Both the position numbers and the translations under genes were made by a program. Below the pieces are notes generated by a model that searched no databases, was not told the origin of the DNA, and worked only from the letters and a program-made list of their open reading frames with translations. This document shows positions 32,340-41,158 of a stretch of 64,000 bases of DNA, piece after piece; the first letter of the stretch is position 1; each line of letters opens with the position of its first letter. This DNA is from Spirochaetota bacterium (GTDB lineage Bacteria; Spirochaetota; Spirochaetia; Treponematales; UBA12059): assembly GCA_022703505.1 (NCBI GenBank), contig JAKLDN010000002.1, forward strand, positions 372,001 through 436,000. Direction: 5' to 3'.

Positions 32340-32400
32340 GGAAGGCCCGCCCGGGCCGGAGATGTCCGCGAAGCCCCGGGGGATTCGTTCGGGAGGCAGC

Positions 32401-32733
32401 ATGGGGATCGAGACGATCGGCGCGGCGCTCGTATTGACGCCCGAGATCAAGCACCTGGATATCCTGAGCTCCAAGGAGTTCGCGGAACGCTTCGCTCCGG
32501 CGGCGAAGGACGCGCGGACGGTCATCCTGGACCTGTCGCAGGTCGAGTTCGTGGACAGTTCGGGGCTCGGCGCCCTGCTCAACCTCGTCCGGGACACCCT
32601 CGGAAGGGGCGGACGGATCTCGATCTGCCGTCCCCAGCCTTCCGTCAAGGTCCTGTTCCGCATGGTCCAGTTATCGAAGCTCGTCTCCATCTTCGACGGG
32701 AAGGACGCGGCCCTCGCCTGGGCGGAGACATGA
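32401..32733 (+). CDS. STAS-domain anti-sigma-factor antagonist-like protein
   Basis: 110 residues starting at the ATG behind GGGAGGCAGC. The single STAS domain has LDLSQVEFVDSSGLGALL, where the second Ser of DSSG is the usual phosphorylation site, kept here. Proteins of this type switch partners when phosphorylated by an RsbW-like kinase and are reset by a PP2C phosphatase. The next gene, overlapping by ATGA, encodes a PP2C phosphatase with an RsbW-like domain, so the two form a self-contained partner-switch pair. Confidence 0.88.
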   Translation: MGIETIGAALVLTPEIKHLDILSSKEFAERFAPAAKDARTVILDLSQVEFVDSSGLGALLNLVRDTLGRGGRISICRPQPSVKVLFRMVQLSKLVSIFDGKDAALAWAET

Positions 32734-34415
32734 GCGGAGTCCCTCCCGACCTGATACCCTGGGTTCCGGCCGCCGCGGTATCCGTGTCGCTCTGCGCACT
32801 TGCCGCGGCCGCGGTACTTGCGGCCCGGCGAGGTCCCCTCCTGCCCCTCGATCGGCCGGAGTACCGCGAGTTCGCCGCCTCCCTGGACGGAGCCGTCGCC
32901 CTGATCTCCGGGGACCTGGAGAAGGTCCTGTACGCGAGCCCCGGTTTCGAGCCCCTCTTCGGGTCGACTCCGGATCGCGTCTCCTTCCGGCGGCTGGAGG
33001 GCGTCGTGCACGCCGAGGATCTGGAGGCCCTGGAGTCGGCCCTCTCCGCAGGCCGCATGCGGCCCTTCGAGGTGGAATTCCGGATCCGGTCGGAGGGAGA
33101 GCCGCGCTGGCTGCGGATGCGGGGCTTCCCGGTGGCGGGAACGGGGAGGAAGGCCGCCCGCAGGATCGCCGTGTGGGTGGAGGACCGGTCCCTGCGCAAG
33201 ACCGACGAGCTCAGGCTGGTGGAGGCCCTCGACTACGAGGTGGCCGTGGGGGCCCGCATCCAGCAGGCCCTGCTCCTGGGGAGTCCGGAGCGGGCGTACC
33301 CGGGCTTCGATCTGGCCTCCATGACCCTGCCTTCCCAGAAGATCGACGGGGATTTCATGGATTTCTTCGACGGCGGACCCGAGGTGCTGGATCTCATGCT
33401 CGGGGACGTGATGGGAAAGGGCGTCCCCGCGGCCCTGACGGGCGCCGCGGCTTGCAACGCCTTCTTCCGTGCCCGGCTTTCCCTGGCGGAACAGGCGGGG
33501 GAATCCCTTCCCCCCGTGAAGGACATCGTCCGCGGCGCGGAGGAACGTATCGCCGGGAAGCTCATGGACCTGCGCACCTTCTTCACCCTGGTGTACGGCC
33601 GCCTGGACGGGAAGCGGGGACTGTACCGCTACGTGGACTGCGGGCATACGAGCGTCCTCCATTTCGAGCGGAAGACCGGGCGCTGCTGGAGGCTCAAAGG
33701 CGCGAACGCCCCGGTGGGGTTCCTGCCCGAGCAGGACTACGTCGAGTACGCGGTGCCGCTCTCTCCCGGGGACCTTCTGTTCCTGTACTCCGACGGGATC
33801 ACGGAAGCCGAGAATTCCGAAGGGGAGCGGTTCGGGGAGGAGCGCCTCATGAAGCTCGTGGGATCCCACTCCGCTCTGGACGCCGCGGCGCTCCTGGACA
33901 AGGTCAAGCACATCGCCTTCGCCTACGCCGGGGGGGATTTCAAGGACGACGTCACGGCCCTGGCGGTGCGCGTCGCCTCCGGCCCCTCCGTCCGGACCGC
34001 GCGCCGCTCATTCCCCCAGTCGATGGACTCCCTGCGGGCGGTACGGGAGTTCTACCGCGCCTGCGCGGACCGTGCCCTGTCGGCCTCCCTTCCCTCCGAG
34101 GACCTGGACGCCCTGCTCATCGCGACCGGCGAGGCCGCCGCGAACATCTTCCGGCACAGCGTACCGGACCGGCCGGCCGACTGCACGGCGGCCTTCCGGG
34201 TGTCCGATTCCTGGGCCGCCTTCTATCTCTACTATCGGGGGGCGGATTACGAATGGCAGGAGCCGACCGCCCCGCCCATCGAGAGCTACCCCGCGGGGGG
34301 CTACGGCCTGTACCTCATCAACGAGGCCATGGATTCCGTGACCGTCTCGCCGGGGGAGGACGGGGAGGTTCGTCTCTGCATGCTGGTCGACCTGGCGTCG
34401 AGGGCGCGCCCTTGA
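32730..34415 (+). CDS. PP2C (SpoIIE/RsbU-type) phosphatase with PAS and RsbW-like ATPase domain
   Basis: 561 residues. One N-terminal membrane helix (about 10-33), a PAS-like domain (46-155), a PP2C domain (170-415) with the metal Asp residues in KIDGDFMDFF, LGDVMGKGVPAAL, LYSDGITEAEN and DDVTALAV, and a C-terminal RsbW/SpoIIAB-like ATPase domain (430-560) with N box ATGEAAANIFRHS and GGYGLYLINEAMD. The G1-box Asp of the ATPase appears replaced (YYRGADYEW), so kinase activity is doubtful while the phosphatase looks intact. SypE of Vibrio fischeri combines the same two activities in biofilm control. Overlaps STAS by ATGA and the next gene by TTGA. Confidence 0.85.
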   Translation: MSGVPPDLIPWVPAAAVSVSLCALAAAAVLAARRGPLLPLDRPEYREFAASLDGAVALISGDLEKVLYASPGFEPLFGSTPDRVSFRRLEGVVHAEDLEALESALSAGRMRPFEVEFRIRSEGEPRWLRMRGFPVAGTGRKAARRIAVWVEDRSLRKTDELRLVEALDYEVAVGARIQQALLLGSPERAYPGFDLASMTLPSQKIDGDFMDFFDGGPEVLDLMLGDVMGKGVPAALTGAAACNAFFRARLSLAEQAGESLPPVKDIVRGAEERIAGKLMDLRTFFTLVYGRLDGKRGLYRYVDCGHTSVLHFERKTGRCWRLKGANAPVGFLPEQDYVEYAVPLSPGDLLFLYSDGITEAENSEGERFGEERLMKLVGSHSALDAAALLDKVKHIAFAYAGGDFKDDVTALAVRVASGPSVRTARRSFPQSMDSLRAVREFYRACADRALSASLPSEDLDALLIATGEAAANIFRHSVPDRPADCTAAFRVSDSWAAFYLYYRGADYEWQEPTAPPIESYPAGGYGLYLINEAMDSVTVSPGEDGEVRLCMLVDLASRARP

Positions 34416-36412
34416 GGGGCATCCGGGAGTTCGGGGACGGGATCTACCGCATAGCCGCGGCGGGGGAGCCGAGGTTGTTCCCCGGGTACTCGTACCTGGT
34501 CACGGACGCGGGCAGGGGCGTCCTTTTGGACCCCGGCCCCGCGTCGGACTTCGCCGCGACCCTGGCCCTCTGCCGGTCGGTGATCTCCCCGGAACGCATT
34601 TCCTTCCTGATCCTGACCTCCGAGACCCCGGACGCCGCCTCCAGCCTTCCCCTGTGGCCCGCTTCCGGCTTCTCGGGTAGGGTCCTGGCCCACTGGAAGG
34701 CGGGACTCCAGGCCCGATGCTATGGGGGTCCGGAAATCCGGGACCTGGGGAACCATGAGGAACGGATCTCCTTCGGCGGCGGCAGGACCTTCCGCTTCGT
34801 CAACGTGCCCGGCCTGCCGTCCGCGGGCTCGATCTTCTGCCTGGACGAGGCCTCCGGGAGCCTGTTCACCGGCATGGCCCTGGGCTCGGTGGGAGGGGGC
34901 GAGACGGAGGGGGACGAGGAGTCTCCCGGAAGGATTGAGTCCTTCCACGACCTCGTGTTCCCCGCCCTGGGCGCCCGGCCGGACGTCCTCGCGGCCCTGG
35001 CTTCCCTGTCCCCCCGCAGGATCCTTCCCCGGAACGGCCCCCCCGTCGAGCGGCATCTGTCCGTCGCCTCCGTCCTGTTCGGGTGCGGGGACGGGGCGGC
35101 CTGCGGACCCGGGGACCTCCCGGAAGCCTGCGCCCGCCTGATCGGGGAGGTGAACCAGCGCCTTGCCGACGTGTTCTCCCCTGCGGAGCTCCGGGACGTC
35201 CTGGCCGAGACCGGGCTGGGCTTCGGCGCGGACGGCCGCCCGGAGCCCGCGGACCTCGCGCCCTCGGACCTGCTGGAGCGGTACTTCGACACCCTGGCCC
35301 GGGTGAAGGGTCCGGTGTGGATCTCCCTCGTGCGGGCCCACGTCGCCCGGGGGACGGAGGCCCTGGGGATCCCCCTGCCCGCCGCCTTCGATCGGTTCGG
35401 CCGGGAGATCGACCGGGGCATCGGCGGCCTGATCCGGGACATCGAGAGGATCCGGACGGAGAACATCGAGCTCCAGAAATCCATCATCCAGGCCAGCGAC
35501 GACCACCTCAAGGATCCCGTCACGGGGTACTACAACGAGATCTTCTTCAAGGAATACCTGGACGACCTTCTCCTGGCGGAAGCCGGCGCCGGGACACCGC
35601 CGGGATCGGTGGCCTTCATCCGTCTGGACGGTATCCGGAAGCTCAACGAGCGGTTCGGGACGGAGGCGGGCGACACCGCCTTGAAGGCCCTGGGCCTGCA
35701 CCTGCTCGACACCAAGAGGCCGAACTCGATCTTCTTCCGGATGAACGGCCCGCTGTTCGCCTGCTATCTCCAGGGGGACGGAAAGACGCAGGCCGTGGAC
35801 TACGTGCGGGAGCTGCAGGCGGAGGTGGAGGGCTCGGGACGCTTCGTGGAGAAGGTGACCGTGTCGGCGGCGATCGTGGAGCTTTCCGAGATCTCCACCG
35901 TGGCCGCGGAGACGGGAAAGCCCTACGCATGCCTGATGAAGGTCTGCAAGGAGCGCATCCACCTTCTGGACAAGCTCGGCCCGGCCTCCATCTGCCACGA
36001 GTCCTCGGTGACCCTCCGGAGGAACCGGGGGAACGTCCTGGTGATCGAAGCCAGCCCCTTCGAGGCCGACCTCCTGCGGAAGGTCCTGGAACGGGAAGGG
36101 TTCGAGGTGCACTCGGTGACGAGGGGGGGCGAGGCCCTGGCCCACGCGGACCTCTACAGGCCCGACGTGATCGTTTCGGAGATCTTCGTCTCCCAGATGG
36201 ACGGCTTCCAGATACGCCAACGCCTGCTCGCGTCTCCGGACCTGAAGAACATCCCCTTCATCCTGGTCTCCTGGGACAAGGGGGCCTCCGCCCTGCGCCA
36301 GGCCTTCGACCTGGGCATCCTCCATTTCTACAAGAAACCCGTCCAGCCGGAGGAGCTCATCGGGATCATCAAGCTGCTCGCCGGGGAGGCGTCCGAGGAG
36401 CGCCGGCCTTGA
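34412..36412 (+). CDS. Degenerate diiron-MBL / GGDEF / receiver signalling protein
   Basis: 666 residues from a TTG overlapping the previous stop. Residues 1-210 follow the metallo-beta-lactamase-fold diiron domain of flavodiiron/ODP proteins (GIYRIAAAGEP, YLVTDAGRGVLLDPGP), but the ligand segment reads TSETPDAASSLP instead of H-x-E-x-D-H, and later His and Asp ligands are Pro and Met. A helical coiled-coil region leads to a GGDEF domain (about 370-525) with NGPLF in place of GGDEF. The C-terminal receiver (540-660) has EA for the acidic pair and Glu for the phospho-acceptor (VIVSEIF), with the switch Lys kept (YKKPV). Probably a non-catalytic sensor or scaffold for the glycosyltransferase encoded next. 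Confidence 0.75.
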   Translation: MRGIREFGDGIYRIAAAGEPRLFPGYSYLVTDAGRGVLLDPGPASDFAATLALCRSVISPERISFLILTSETPDAASSLPLWPASGFSGRVLAHWKAGLQARCYGGPEIRDLGNHEERISFGGGRTFRFVNVPGLPSAGSIFCLDEASGSLFTGMALGSVGGGETEGDEESPGRIESFHDLVFPALGARPDVLAALASLSPRRILPRNGPPVERHLSVASVLFGCGDGAACGPGDLPEACARLIGEVNQRLADVFSPAELRDVLAETGLGFGADGRPEPADLAPSDLLERYFDTLARVKGPVWISLVRAHVARGTEALGIPLPAAFDRFGREIDRGIGGLIRDIERIRTENIELQKSIIQASDDHLKDPVTGYYNEIFFKEYLDDLLLAEAGAGTPPGSVAFIRLDGIRKLNERFGTEAGDTALKALGLHLLDTKRPNSIFFRMNGPLFACYLQGDGKTQAVDYVRELQAEVEGSGRFVEKVTVSAAIVELSEISTVAAETGKPYACLMKVCKERIHLLDKLGPASICHESSVTLRRNRGNVLVIEASPFEADLLRKVLEREGFEVHSVTRGGEALAHADLYRPDVIVSEIFVSQMDGFQIRQRLLASPDLKNIPFILVSWDKGASALRQAFDLGILHFYKKPVQPEELIGIIKLLAGEASEERRP

Positions 36413-39252
36413 TTCTTCCGATATCCCTCCTGCTATTTTTCCTGGCGGCGAACGGCGTCACGGTCCTGGCGCTTCTGGTCGTCAAGCGGCGAGGGCGCGT
36501 GATCTACCGCCGGGCCCAGACCGTGCGGGGCGCGCTCATCTCGGCGGTGATCGACCGGGACCGGTCCGGGCTCGGGAAGCTGGCACGGAGGAATTCCGGC
36601 CTTTCGATCCGGCTCTGGGCCGACCTGAGGGCGACCTTCTACTTCACGGACCGGGAGGCGGAGCCCGTGCTGGAGGTGTTCCGATCGTCCGGGATCGAGG
36701 CGCGGCTCCTGCGGCGGCTCCGCTCCCGCGAGCCCCTGGAACGCTTCCGCGCCTCCCGCATGCTCCTGCCCCTGGTGTCTCCGGGGATCGTGCCCGCTCT
36801 CGTCCGGGCCCTCCACCGGGAGACCCGGGATTTCGTCCGGATCGCCCTGGTCAAGGATCTGCTGTCCTCGGACCTGAGCCCGGCCTACGACGCGATAGCC
36901 GAGAGCCTGCGGGACTGCGGGATGGGGTATTTCCGTTCCGTCCGCGCGATGCTGGCGGCGGTCGGGAACGGCTTCGTCGACTGGGCACGGGATCGCCTCG
37001 TGCCCTCGGACCCGGGATTCGCCGTCGCGGTGCTGGCGGGGGCCCGGACCCACCCCGCCCCGTGGCTCCGGGATTTCGTCCTCATCTGCCTGGACCATGA
37101 CGATCCCCGGATCCGGAGCTCCGCCATCGAGGCCGCGGAATCCCTCTACCCCGAGATGCTGGCCGGCCGCGCGGAGGACAGGGGCGCGGACATCGTGACC
37201 CGCCGGGCCTCCCTTCGCGCCCAGGCGGAGGTATCTTATCCCCTGGACCTGGAAGCCTTCGCCGAATACCTGACGGACCCGACCCTCCGGGACGTGGCGG
37301 CCTCCTGCCTGTCCGAATACCTCGGGCGCTACCCGGAGGAGGCGGGCCGGATCCTGGAACTCCTGTCCCGTCTGCCGGATTCCGAGGCCGCCCGCGCCCT
37401 GGCAGGGGTCCTGGGCGTCCGGCTGCCCTTCCTGTTCGTCTCGGGAGAGGATCCCGGGCGCTGTCGGCGCGTCGTGGAAGGCCTGGCCGCCTCGGGCCGC
37501 AGTTCGGAGATCATCGCCCTGCTCAACTCCAACCGGGACTCCGAGCTGGAGGGGCTCCTGCTGGAGTGGATACGGCCGTATCTCGGGACGGTTCCGGAGT
37601 TCCGCAGGGACTGCGCGGGATACCTGGAGCCCCGCCTGCGGGAGGCCCTGGGCATCGCCCCCGAGGAGGTCCCGAAGAGCTCCCGGAAGATTCCCCTGAC
37701 CCGCCGGGACCGGCTTAGGCTGGTGGTCGTGCTGGCGGCCGTGGTCGCCGTGCCTTCGGCGGCCATCGCCTACGGCCTTTCCGGGGCCACCATCGGCAGG
37801 ACCTGGATCCTGGCCCGGGAGATCTTCCGCCTGTTCACCTGGGGCTTCGCCTTCTACGCGGTCTTCCTGAACCTGGTGTACATCGTCCTCCTGCTGCTGG
37901 CCGCGCGGAACCTGGGCATCCAGGCGAAGTACTGGGCCGTCCTGGACAAGGACTTCCTGTTCACCCCGGGAATCATGCCCTCCATCTCGATCCTGGCGCC
38001 GGCGTACAACGAGGAGAAGACCGTGCTGGAGAGCGTGCACTCCCTGCTGTCCCTCCAGCATCCCGACTACCAGGTCATCGTCATCAACGATGGGTCCTCG
38101 GACGACACGATGGGCGTCCTTGCGAGGGCCTTCGACCTGGAGCGGATGGATCCGAGCAGGACCGGATCCCTGCCGACGGCCCCCGTGCGGGGGGTGTACC
38201 GGTCGCCGGGCAACCCGAAGCTCCTGGTCGTGGACAAGGAGAACGGGGGCAAGGCGGACGCCCTGAACGCGGGCATCAACCTGGCCCGCTGCGAGTACAT
38301 CTGCAGTATCGATTCCGACTCCCTCCTCGAGCCCGACGCCCTGCTCCGGATGACCGCGGAGGTGCTCACCTCGGACGTCGAGACCGTGGCCGTGGGCGGC
38401 AACATACTTCCCGTGAACGGATGCACCGTGGAACGGGGCATGCTGCAGAAGATAGGCCTGCCATCGAATCGGATCGCCCGGTTCCAGACCATCGAATACC
38501 TCCGGTCCTTCATAGCCGGCCGCCTGGGCTGGGCCCAGATCAACGCCCTCCTGATAATCTCCGGGGCCTTCGGACTCTTCCGGCGGGACCGGGTGCTGGA
38601 GATCGGGGGCTACCTCACGGGGCGGGGGGAGTTCAAGCGGGACACGGTGGGGGAGGACATGGAGCTGGTCGTCCGCCTGGTCCGGAGGATGCGGGAGTCC
38701 CGGCGGAAGTACCGGATACGGTACGCCGCCACGGCGAACTGCTGGACCGAGGTCCCCGAAAGCCTGGGGGGGCTGTACAAGCAGAGGGACCGCTGGCATC
38801 GGGGCCTGGTGGAGATCATGACCTGGCACCGGAAGATGTTGTTCAATCCGAAGTACGGATCGGCGGGGCTGCTGGCCTTTCCCTATTTCCTCGCGTTCGA
38901 GGTGATCGGCCCCTTCTACGAGTTCGCCGGGTATCCCCTCATGATCCTCGGCTTCGCGGTCGGGGCCCTGAGCCTTCCCGTCTTCCTGGTCATGTTCAGC
39001 GCGGTCCTCCTGTTCGGACTGCTCATCTCCCTGGTCTCCCTGGCCCTGTCCGAACGGGATATCGTGTACTTCCGACCCGTGGAGCTGGCCCGGCTCCTGG
39101 GGTACTCCATCCTGGAGAACTTCGGGTTCCGCCAGCTCATGGGCTGGGTCCGGGTGTTTTCCGTCCTCCAGCTCCTGACCCGGAACAAGGGTTGGCAGAA
39201 GCTGGAGCGGAAGGGATTCCTGCCGTCTAGGGTTCCAGGACCAGCTCCGTAG
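36409..39252 (+). CDS. HEAT-like repeat / processive family 2 glycosyltransferase fusion
   Basis: 947 residues from a TTG overlapping the previous stop (TTGA). Membrane helix 1-22, then about 400 residues of alpha-helical HEAT-like repeats (RFRASRMLLPLVSPGIVPALVRAL, DDPRIRSSAIEAAESL), two helices (435-457, 475-503), and a GT2 domain from about 523: ILAPAYNEEKTV, VINDGSSDD, SIDSDS, GEDMELV and the processivity motif Q-x-x-R-W (QRDRW, residue 792). Several C-terminal helices (820-890) complete a PgaC/BcsA-like synthase. Likely makes an extracellular beta-glycan; the sugar is not predictable. The 3' end overlaps the facing deacetylase gene by 26 bases. Confidence 0.85.
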   Translation: MILPISLLLFFLAANGVTVLALLVVKRRGRVIYRRAQTVRGALISAVIDRDRSGLGKLARRNSGLSIRLWADLRATFYFTDREAEPVLEVFRSSGIEARLLRRLRSREPLERFRASRMLLPLVSPGIVPALVRALHRETRDFVRIALVKDLLSSDLSPAYDAIAESLRDCGMGYFRSVRAMLAAVGNGFVDWARDRLVPSDPGFAVAVLAGARTHPAPWLRDFVLICLDHDDPRIRSSAIEAAESLYPEMLAGRAEDRGADIVTRRASLRAQAEVSYPLDLEAFAEYLTDPTLRDVAASCLSEYLGRYPEEAGRILELLSRLPDSEAARALAGVLGVRLPFLFVSGEDPGRCRRVVEGLAASGRSSEIIALLNSNRDSELEGLLLEWIRPYLGTVPEFRRDCAGYLEPRLREALGIAPEEVPKSSRKIPLTRRDRLRLVVVLAAVVAVPSAAIAYGLSGATIGRTWILAREIFRLFTWGFAFYAVFLNLVYIVLLLLAARNLGIQAKYWAVLDKDFLFTPGIMPSISILAPAYNEEKTVLESVHSLLSLQHPDYQVIVINDGSSDDTMGVLARAFDLERMDPSRTGSLPTAPVRGVYRSPGNPKLLVVDKENGGKADALNAGINLARCEYICSIDSDSLLEPDALLRMTAEVLTSDVETVAVGGNILPVNGCTVERGMLQKIGLPSNRIARFQTIEYLRSFIAGRLGWAQINALLIISGAFGLFRRDRVLEIGGYLTGRGEFKRDTVGEDMELVVRLVRRMRESRRKYRIRYAATANCWTEVPESLGGLYKQRDRWHRGLVEIMTWHRKMLFNPKYGSAGLLAFPYFLAFEVIGPFYEFAGYPLMILGFAVGALSLPVFLVMFSAVLLFGLLISLVSLALSERDIVYFRPVELARLLGYSILENFGFRQLMGWVRVFSVLQLLTRNKGWQKLERKGFLPSRVPGPAP

Positions 39253-41158
39253 TCCCCGCGGGCAGGTCGAGTACGAAGGTGCCGTTCGCCCCGCGGGGCG
39301 CGGCGATGCGGAAACCTTCGGGAAGCCGTATGCCGAGTCCCCGGACGGGAAGGGGCGAGGAGAGCCGGAGTACCCGGCGGTCTCCGGAAGGGACCACGTC
39401 GGACTCGACCCCGTCCCGGGCCGTCCACCAGTCCCCGAACTCGCGCAGGGTTCCCCACCAGGCCTTTTCGCGCATCCTCTCCGAGAAGGCCCGGAGGAAC
39501 CGGAGCTTCTCCGCGGTTACGTTGGGGTGGATGAGGATGACGAAGAGCCCCCCGTAGCGGGAGATCTTTCCCGCCAGCTCCACCGCGTCCTCGACCCGGC
39601 CGTCCATGGGCGGATCCTTCTCGTCCTCCACGGTGATGGGAAACTCGTAGACCGCGGTCTCCGACCGGTACAGGCGGTCGTGGTTCAGGCGGAAGGGCAG
39701 GTGGGTCATCACGTCGTTGGCCGCCACCGCGGAGGAATACCGGTACCCCGCGGATTCCAGGGACTGGGGCAGGGAAAAGGGGTTGGCCAGGAACCCGGGC
39801 CGGAACGAATCGACCCGGGACCGGGACAGGCGCTCGATCAGGAATTTGCTGACCCGCAGCTCCCCCATGATCGTCGCGTTCCTCGTGTAGTAGAACTCGA
39901 TGATCCGGGGCTGGTAGTCGGGGTAGGACTCCCGGAAGGTTCCCTGCGGCACCCGGGCGAACATGTCCGAATGGCAGACCGAGTGGCTGGCCAGCTCCAT
40001 CCCCAGCTCCTCCAGCCGTGCCAGGAGCTCCGGGGTCCGCTCGTCGAAGAAGACCTCGTCGAAGAAATCCCGGAAGTACTTGGTCTGCAGAAAATAGGTC
40101 GCGCCGTATCCCATGCTCCGCTCGTACTCCGCGTACTCCACGCTGTTGGCCAGGGACCCCGCGTAGTCCACGTCGTGGGAGACGACGACCGAGAGGGGCA
40201 TGCCGTCCGGGGCGGGGTGGAGGAAGACCGCGTCCGGCTCCCGGGCGCGGTACACCTCCCCGAGAAACCGGAGCAGGGAGTCCACGGAGGGCTCGAAGGA
40301 GTTCACGTAGGTGCGGTTGGCCTCGTCGTCCCGGTTCCCCTGGGCGCCCTGGATGTACCGGCCGAGGTCGAAGCCGAAGGCCATCGCGGTCCCGGCTCCG
40401 TCACGGCGCCGGATGACCGCCGCCCCCCCGTCCTCGTACCGGGCGAGCACTTCCTCCGGGTCCGAGAAGGCCGCCGTACGGAGCCTGTACCGGGCGCGGT
40501 CGGGATTGCCAAGACGCGTGGTCCGCTCCTCGGGATACTCGAGGCCGGCGGCGAAGGGGCTGTCCTCGTAGCGGAGTTCGGACCTCCGCCGGTTCCGGAC
40601 GGCTCCCCGGAACCCGAAGAGGGCCTCGACCCGGGGCTCCGGCCGGCCGGTCTGGACCGCCAGGAGGGTCCCGCCCCCGCGCACGAAATCCTCCAGCCGC
40701 CGCGCCTCCGTGTCGTCCAGGCTCCCCCGCTTGAAACCCGGGTAGGCCAGGACCACGTCGTGCTCCAGGGCGGAGTCCAGGGAATCCGTGACGCGGAAGG
40801 GTATGCCCAGGGACTTGAAGCCGTGGACCAGGCCCAGCCAGGAGGACCGGGGATCCGTCAGGAGGACGGCCAGTCGGGAGGGAGAGCCCTCCCCGTAGGT
40901 CCGCCAGTCCGCCGGGACTTCCCCGGGCTTCGGAGAGGCGGCCTCCGGCCCCCGTACGCCCGGAAGGTCCACATATTCCTCCCGGGCTTGCCGGACCAAC
41001 CGGGATTCCGGGCCGACGCCCTCGAGCCCGGGCACGGTGTAACGCCCCGAACCTCCGGACCCGCAGGACGCCGCGAGAGCCAGGGCGGAGGCGGCAAGGG
41101 CGAGGCGGAGGGCGGCGGAAAGGACGCGGCGCGGGGCAGGGCGGAACGAGGACGGCAT
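39227..41158 (-). CDS. Lipoprotein polysaccharide deacetylase-like protein
   Basis: 643 residues. Signal sequence with lipobox LALAASC (Cys near residue 32). Residues about 80-290 form a glutamine-amidotransferase-like or Rossmann-type region (LAVLLTDPRSSWLG, VLAYPGFKRG, FVRGGGTLLAV). The C-terminal half is a NodB-type deacetylase: VVSHDVDYAG (catalytic Asp and metal Asp), ELASHSVCHSDMF (H-S-x-x-H), SFRPGF and FVILIHPN. Metal ligands are intact. Facing a PgaC-like synthase, it may N-deacetylate the polymer as PgaB or IcaB do for PNAG. The start follows TATACT by seven bases; no ribosome site. Confidence 0.75.
   Translation of the reverse strand: MPSSFRPAPRRVLSAALRLALAASALALAASCGSGGSGRYTVPGLEGVGPESRLVRQAREEYVDLPGVRGPEAASPKPGEVPADWRTYGEGSPSRLAVLLTDPRSSWLGLVHGFKSLGIPFRVTDSLDSALEHDVVLAYPGFKRGSLDDTEARRLEDFVRGGGTLLAVQTGRPEPRVEALFGFRGAVRNRRRSELRYEDSPFAAGLEYPEERTTRLGNPDRARYRLRTAAFSDPEEVLARYEDGGAAVIRRRDGAGTAMAFGFDLGRYIQGAQGNRDDEANRTYVNSFEPSVDSLLRFLGEVYRAREPDAVFLHPAPDGMPLSVVVSHDVDYAGSLANSVEYAEYERSMGYGATYFLQTKYFRDFFDEVFFDERTPELLARLEELGMELASHSVCHSDMFARVPQGTFRESYPDYQPRIIEFYYTRNATIMGELRVSKFLIERLSRSRVDSFRPGFLANPFSLPQSLESAGYRYSSAVAANDVMTHLPFRLNHDRLYRSETAVYEFPITVEDEKDPPMDGRVEDAVELAGKISRYGGLFVILIHPNVTAEKLRFLRAFSERMREKAWWGTLREFGDWWTARDGVESDVVPSGDRRVLRLSSPLPVRGLGIRLPEGFRIAAPRGANGTFVLDLPAGTTELVLEP

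Follow-up and report, generated by a model that had tools for sequence, protein, structure and literature searches.

A protein with three degenerate signalling domains

The gene studied here lies at 34412-36412 on the forward strand of a 64,000-nucleotide stretch of DNA (the window; G000:C7:372001-436000) from a 3.66 Mb spirochaete metagenome-assembled genome. It is an intact open reading frame that starts with TTG and encodes a 666-residue protein, in which an ODP-type metallo-beta-lactamase fold, a GGDEF domain and a response-regulator receiver have each lost residues of the canonical active site. The gene overlaps its neighbours on both sides: the TTG at 34412 shares a TTGA with the TGA stop (34413-34415) of a SpoIIE gene, and its own TGA (36410-36412) overlaps the TTG start of a glycosyltransferase gene at 36409. 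These TTGA overlaps to a PP2C switch and a polysaccharide synthase had been described in a first-pass annotation made from the sequence alone, and both can indeed be read.

Pfam profiles for ODP (7.9e-17), GGDEF (1.8e-10) and Response_reg (3.4e-15) matched the protein, each past its curated cut-off; NCBIfam searches with the whole protein gave domain-level matches only, far under the equivalog cut-offs. The AlphaFold2 model (pLDDT 86, pTM 0.50), in which the domains are good and their placement relative to each other is uncertain, recovered the three folds and showed, in addition, a middle domain made of helices and, ahead of the GGDEF domain, a long helix that forms a stalk. Top Foldseek matches included T. 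denticola ODP (6r9n), T. maritima ODP, SiaD with SiaC (7e6g), PleD and DgcB. Together with the alignments described below, these searches divide the protein into an ODP-type fold at residues 1-225 (34412-35086), belonging to the metallo-beta-lactamase fold of the ODP family (PF19583; Foldseek match to 6r9n, 7.2e-13), a five-helix middle domain at residues 229-339 (35096-35428), a stalk helix at residues 324-366 (35381-35509), which is seen in the predicted secondary structure and resembles those of SiaD and DgcB (matches 7e6g and 6ttr), a GGDEF fold at residues 367-535 (35510-36016) and a receiver at residues 539-662 (36026-36397; fold match with Z about 21). The middle domain has no relative in Pfam or PDB sequence searches; when it was modelled alone (pLDDT 87), the best Foldseek match had an E-value of 1.3 and the top VIA-align match a Z of 6.6, which is below the meaningful level for a helical domain. 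Assignment of this domain to a known fold was dropped, as neither structure nor sequence searches gave a convincing match, though it may still be related to one.

The metal ligands of the ODP domain were checked in an alignment with T. denticola ODP and 42 members of the family described below. At the six diiron positions (H, D, D, H, D, H) the window protein has S, T, D, P, M, N, leaving it without the ligand set (H, D/E, D, H, D, H) of a diiron ODP. The earlier description of this domain as devoid of ligands therefore holds for five of the six, one Asp being left. The GGDEF signature reads RMNGPLF (35738-35758), extending the NGPLF noted before, and the Mg2+-binding aspartate, D327 of PleD, is replaced by Arg; the protein thus lacks both the GG[DE]EF signature and the Mg2+ aspartate of a diguanylate cyclase. 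The guanine-contacting N335 and D344 are retained, and the RxxD inhibitory-site (I-site) motif is RPNS. Residues here and below are given in PleD numbering (D327, N335, D344) or CheY numbering. In the receiver, the acidic pair DD is replaced by EA and the phospho-accepting aspartate by Glu, as had been proposed, with the conserved Ser and Lys retained; a receiver fold with a substituted phospho-Asp is by definition a pseudo-receiver. The profile matches, the model and the residue checks together bear out the picture of conserved folds with lost catalysis. Of the other GGDEF domains of the same genome, 17 of the 20 read are canonical, so the dead GGDEF domain of the window is an exception.

The losses are conserved under selection

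Damage to all three canonical sites could be that of a relic in decay, which only its position in the operon preserves, and the absence of the middle domain from close relatives (G002 and G016) could be taken in the same way. The substitution pattern already contradicts this explanation. The orthologue in the congener G001 is 90% identical to the window protein, and the ratio of nonsynonymous to synonymous substitution rates (dN/dS, Nei-Gojobori method with a simple correction) between the two is 0.18 for the whole gene, 0.17 for the ODP domain, 0.14 for the GGDEF domain and, at its minimum, 0.08 for the receiver. Comparisons with G002 and G016 gave 0.29 and 0.33. Moreover, the same kind of residue losses are found at three further orthologue loci, the losses persist in four related genomes, and that of the GGDEF domain extends to the whole family over the phylum. 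These ratios indicate that the gene is under purifying selection and, with the conservation of the losses, exclude simple decay; we regard a relic as highly improbable.

A family of pseudo-enzymes upstream of HEAT-GT synthases

We surveyed the Spirochaetota using as an anchor the synthase encoded downstream, which combines HEAT repeats with a PgaC/IcaA-like family 2 glycosyltransferase (GT2). This synthase was found in 32 of the 294 genomes within the order and in 27 of 393 within the phylum. A protein of the same GGDEF-receiver family is encoded directly upstream of the HEAT-GT gene at 41 of the 44 loci that have upstream DNA, which supports, across the phylum, the coupling to the synthase suggested by the first-pass annotation. 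Among 59 relatives, the family was found in 16 of 19 genomes with HEAT-GT and in none of the 40 others (Fisher p 9e-12, uncorrected for kinship). The three HEAT-GT genomes in which it was not detected comprise two with contigs that stop at the synthase and one with a divergent member. The family sample consists of 42 members, including one added from a broken contig (L032), two cut by contig ends and one weak match (L073, E 3e-27). None of the loci read contained a fusion of the family to the synthase or to a STAS partner.

The catalytic acidic residues of the GGDEF domain are lost in all 42 members. In principle, such a domain could still serve as an allosteric nucleotide sensor that binds GTP, or a different nucleotide, and does not turn it over, since the guanine-contacting N335 and D344 are retained in the window protein and in about half of the family. 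However, the Mg2+ and signature-loop residues are gone (Arg for D327, NGPLF), the guanine positions are mostly E/E in the f4 clade, and N335 and D344 may persist for folding; we find a nucleotide sensor quite unlikely.

The RxxD motif of the I-site is also absent from all 42 members, which weakens the earlier suggestion of a cyclic di-GMP (c-di-GMP) receiver and rules out a receptor that works through the I-site. A receptor of the PelD, PssE or BcsE kind, in which c-di-GMP bound to the degenerate GGDEF domain or to the pseudo-receiver switches the synthase on, would suit the setting, because here too an inactive GGDEF protein is encoded with a polysaccharide synthase, as PelD and PssE are with the synthases they serve (PMC8461298, PMC4125290). 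The second messenger is likely made in this organism, given 25 GGDEF matches in the genome, mostly canonical where read. Pseudo-receivers can bind c-di-GMP, as in ShkA (PMC7010744, PMC12632262), and PgaC/PgaD responds to it (PMC8461298). PelD, PssE and BcsE, however, all use the RxxD motif that the window family lacks, and no PilZ match was found at the locus. Other binding sites are possible, and we consider a c-di-GMP receptor an unlikely alternative.

The position of the receiver phospho-Asp (residue 57) is occupied by Glu in 34 of the 42 members and by Asp in 8. All eight Asp57 members lack the acid at residue 13, members acidic at residue 13 carry Glu57, and no member has both, so that a complete canonical phosphorylation site is found in 0 of 42. 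Glu in place of the phospho-Asp is a known pseudo-receiver state (PMC4395418, PMC12632262) and the commonest replacement in aspartate-less receivers, at 26% (PMC4395418). The prevalence of Glu, together with the Ser and Lys that are mostly retained over the family, makes the phospho-mimic receiver proposed in the first-pass annotation plausible.

In contrast to the other two domains, the ODP domain varies. Of the 33 members that bear it, 12 have intact ligands and 21 have lost them, and several members are without the domain; the 12 intact copies match T. denticola ODP at every ligand. T. denticola ODP senses oxygen in chemotaxis (PMC7666581). The ODP domain might thus be the original input of the family, sensing oxygen or iron, and the window clade might keep some remnant of a metal or redox function or have gained a new ligand in its place. 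Yet five of the six ligands are gone in the window protein and in its close relatives G001, G002 and G016, the domain is missing from some members, and the tree requires no fewer than five switches between the intact and the lost state. With its ligands gone, the redox role offered for the window copy by the first-pass annotation is unlikely; the relatives for which it may hold are the 12 with intact sites. We view an oxygen or iron sensor by descent as rather unlikely for the window protein.

On a tree built from the GT and GGDEF-receiver sequences, in which the long branches L048, L073, L072 and L060 are placed unsurely, five changes are needed for the intact/lost state of the ODP site, two for Glu/Asp in the receiver and one for the presence of upstream STAS and SpoIIE genes. 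As the GGDEF and receiver losses occur throughout the family and the ODP loss recurs on the tree, the alignments indicate that the pair of pseudo-GGDEF and pseudo-receiver is a family trait, and that loss of the metal site is a repeated event. The first-pass annotation had held that orthologues with canonical residues would mark this copy as merely decaying. The survey answers this in two parts: orthologues with intact ODP ligands exist, and none has a canonical GGDEF domain or a complete receiver site.

A partner switch and a synthase flank the degenerate protein

Upstream of the gene on the same strand lie a STAS gene (32362-32733; SpoIIAA/RsbV-like, Pfam STAS 2.1e-18), whose product keeps the phospho-acceptor motif VDSSGLGA, and the SpoIIE gene (32730-34415), which encodes PAS, SpoIIE/PP2C and RsbW-like HATPase domains on one chain (Pfam SpoIIE 2.5e-40, HATPase_c_2 1.2e-12, PAS_3 7.3e-8) with metal and ATP motifs kept. 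The STAS and SpoIIE pair precedes the family gene at 11 loci, which form one clade (hereafter, the window clade); over these loci the SpoIIE metal motifs and the HATPase N and G boxes are kept, and none has an intact ODP site. A partner-switch gene set (PP2C, kinase and STAS-like protein) with largely preserved motifs thus stands beside a GGDEF gene at all 11.

The downstream gene (36409-39252, forward strand) encodes the HEAT-repeat and PgaC/IcaA-like GT2 polysaccharide synthase, identified by profile matches and alignment (PgaC-like match 1.1e-39, under the equivalog cut-off). Its catalytic D, DxD, ED and QxxRW motifs are intact, as they are in all 39 aligned sequences (one partial row is without two of the motifs). 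The regulator, itself dead, thus has neighbours on both sides, the switch and the synthase, that look live. Convergent to the synthase gene, on the reverse strand (39227-41158), is a gene for a predicted lipoprotein with weak DUF4350-like and polysaccharide-deacetylase-like matches. It is a neighbour in close relatives only (G001, G002 and G016 keep its position), and its product perhaps modifies the polymer.

A possible adaptor between switch and synthase

The explanation that we favour, with about even confidence, is that the window protein is a dedicated pseudo-enzyme adaptor, which would control the adjoining HEAT-GT2 exopolysaccharide synthase post-translationally, by protein contact and not by catalysis. 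The adaptor would form dimers by way of the stalk helix. Its Glu-bearing receiver, the face of the degenerate GGDEF domain, or both, would dock onto the HEAT domain or the synthase, as a module whose state is permanently set. In the window clade only, the bifunctional PP2C/RsbW-like protein would set the phosphorylation of the STAS protein, which in one of its states would bind the stalk and degenerate GGDEF part and shift the conformation of the adaptor. This shift would start or stop the making of the polysaccharide, and no c-di-GMP would be produced. In the relatives whose ODP site is intact, the signal read by this output module may instead be oxygen, by analogy to T. denticola ODP, or iron. 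Extended to the whole family, the proposal is more tentative: its members could be phylum-wide obligate pseudo-enzymes, a built-in c-di-GMP-independent regulator of the HEAT synthase with an exchangeable input end, a diiron ODP in many members and the PP2C/STAS switch in the window clade, where the ODP metal site is lost.

Each ingredient of the adaptor proposal is known from other systems. The partner switch recalls SiaABCD and HsbR-HsbA-HsbD of Pseudomonas aeruginosa, in which a PP2C, a kinase and a SpoIIAA-like or anti-anti-sigma protein occur and phosphorylation of the latter decides whether it binds a GGDEF protein: SiaC in its unphosphorylated form attaches to the stalk of SiaD, which SiaB prevents by phosphorylating SiaC (PMC8457831), while HsbA binds HsbD when phosphorylated (PMC5085249). 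The stalk and GGDEF fold of the window protein match those in the SiaC-SiaD complex (7e6g). In Vibrio fischeri, SypE, a kinase/phosphatase regulator with a central receiver, acts on the STAS protein SypA to control polysaccharide-dependent biofilm, and the action of SypA is described as unknown (PMC10120452, PMC3610818). Unlike that of the SiaD and HsbD cyclases, the output of the window system is probably the adjacent synthase. We know of no pseudo-GGDEF target for SypE/SypA.

The closest parallel on the output side is the enterobacterial protein BcsE, a degenerate receiver-GGDEF tandem that works by binding cellulose secretion partners, so that a pseudo-receiver and a pseudo-GGDEF on one chain act on a polysaccharide synthase system through partner binding (PMC7439463). 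In BcsE, however, the receiver comes before the GGDEF domain, c-di-GMP is bound through an RxxD I-site and the N-terminal domain is RecA-like, whereas the window protein has the order GGDEF-receiver, no I-site and an N-terminal ODP fold. That fold resembles the oxygen-binding diiron ODP of T. denticola (6r9n, 6qnm; PMC7666581) in structure and sequence, and differs from it in the lost ligands and in that no chemotaxis partner is seen at the locus. The receiver resembles FrzS, ChxR and RitR, which have the fold without the phospho-Asp (PMC4395418, PMC12632262, PMC1974792), and differs in being coupled to a degenerate GGDEF domain within a family whose sampled members have no complete phosphorylation site. 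The literature searched contained neither the exact architecture, nor the family-wide absence of the I-site, nor an ODP fusion that is intact or dead by member, nor a paper joining spirochaete exopolysaccharide with GGDEF and HEAT repeats. Thus the earlier statement that no such protein has been described stands, within this literature, for the architecture and needs qualifying for receiver-GGDEF tandems beside synthases, for which BcsE is a precedent. With Glu receivers, synthase-serving degenerate GGDEF domains and partner switches on GGDEF proteins each known, and their combination not found in this literature, we consider the system a variant of known ones and not a separate category.

Several points weigh against the adaptor proposal. 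AlphaFold2 modelled single chains only, and the contacts are inferred. SiaD and HsbD are active cyclases, the window GGDEF domain is dead and the locus shows no active-cyclase output of the SiaABCD/HsbRAD type, limiting the analogy to binding. Relatives that have no STAS gene next to the family gene possess the stalk too, the genome has 10 STAS matches, so that the STAS protein may act elsewhere, and the phosphorylatable STAS residue is kept at 9 of the 11 loci, L034 and L036 having Ala (NSAGLG). The joint occurrence of STAS/SpoIIE and ODP loss is a single event in a single clade and no statistical association. At three of the 44 synthase loci, all distant (L075-L077), a canonical receiver and a TPR protein are found, with HEAT and GT as separate genes. 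Finally, operon adjacency could reflect shared expression only.

If the adaptor proposal is true, degenerate GGDEF proteins beside synthases can work purely as protein switches, and a family without catalysis, without an I-site and with an unphosphorylatable receiver departs from the I-site reading of PelD, PssE and BcsE. It would also provide a testable tie from oxygen sensing (in members with an intact ODP site) or Ser/Thr partner switching (in the window clade) to spirochaete exopolysaccharide, and the family bears on how pseudo-receivers act.

Observations at related loci

Elsewhere in the same genome, at L045:6597-7784 (G000:C7 about 15.6-16.8 kb), a stand-alone ODP is encoded in which no ligand is missing (HDDVHDH); judging from these residues, an ODP that functions as an oxygen sensor probably persists in this organism. 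The five-helix domain (35096-35428), missing from the close relatives G002 and G016, is found in distant members of the family. The Ala-bearing STAS genes lie at L034:2380-2811 and L036:12772-13116, where the receiver of the family protein has Asp and not Glu, and the partner switch may be wired differently at these two loci. At L075, L076 and L077 (G330, G296 and G338) the gene order is receiver, TPR protein, HEAT protein, GT2; the receiver is canonical where read (L075), and the regulator-HEAT-GT operon may have descended from such an arrangement. At several loci of the same class, a membrane-anchored protein of about 1075 residues is encoded directly upstream of the family gene (L065:6365-9589, L066:6356-9595 and L068:1366-4776). 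Pfam gave no match for the L065 copy, the one copy scanned, and by eye the protein looks like a glycosidase.

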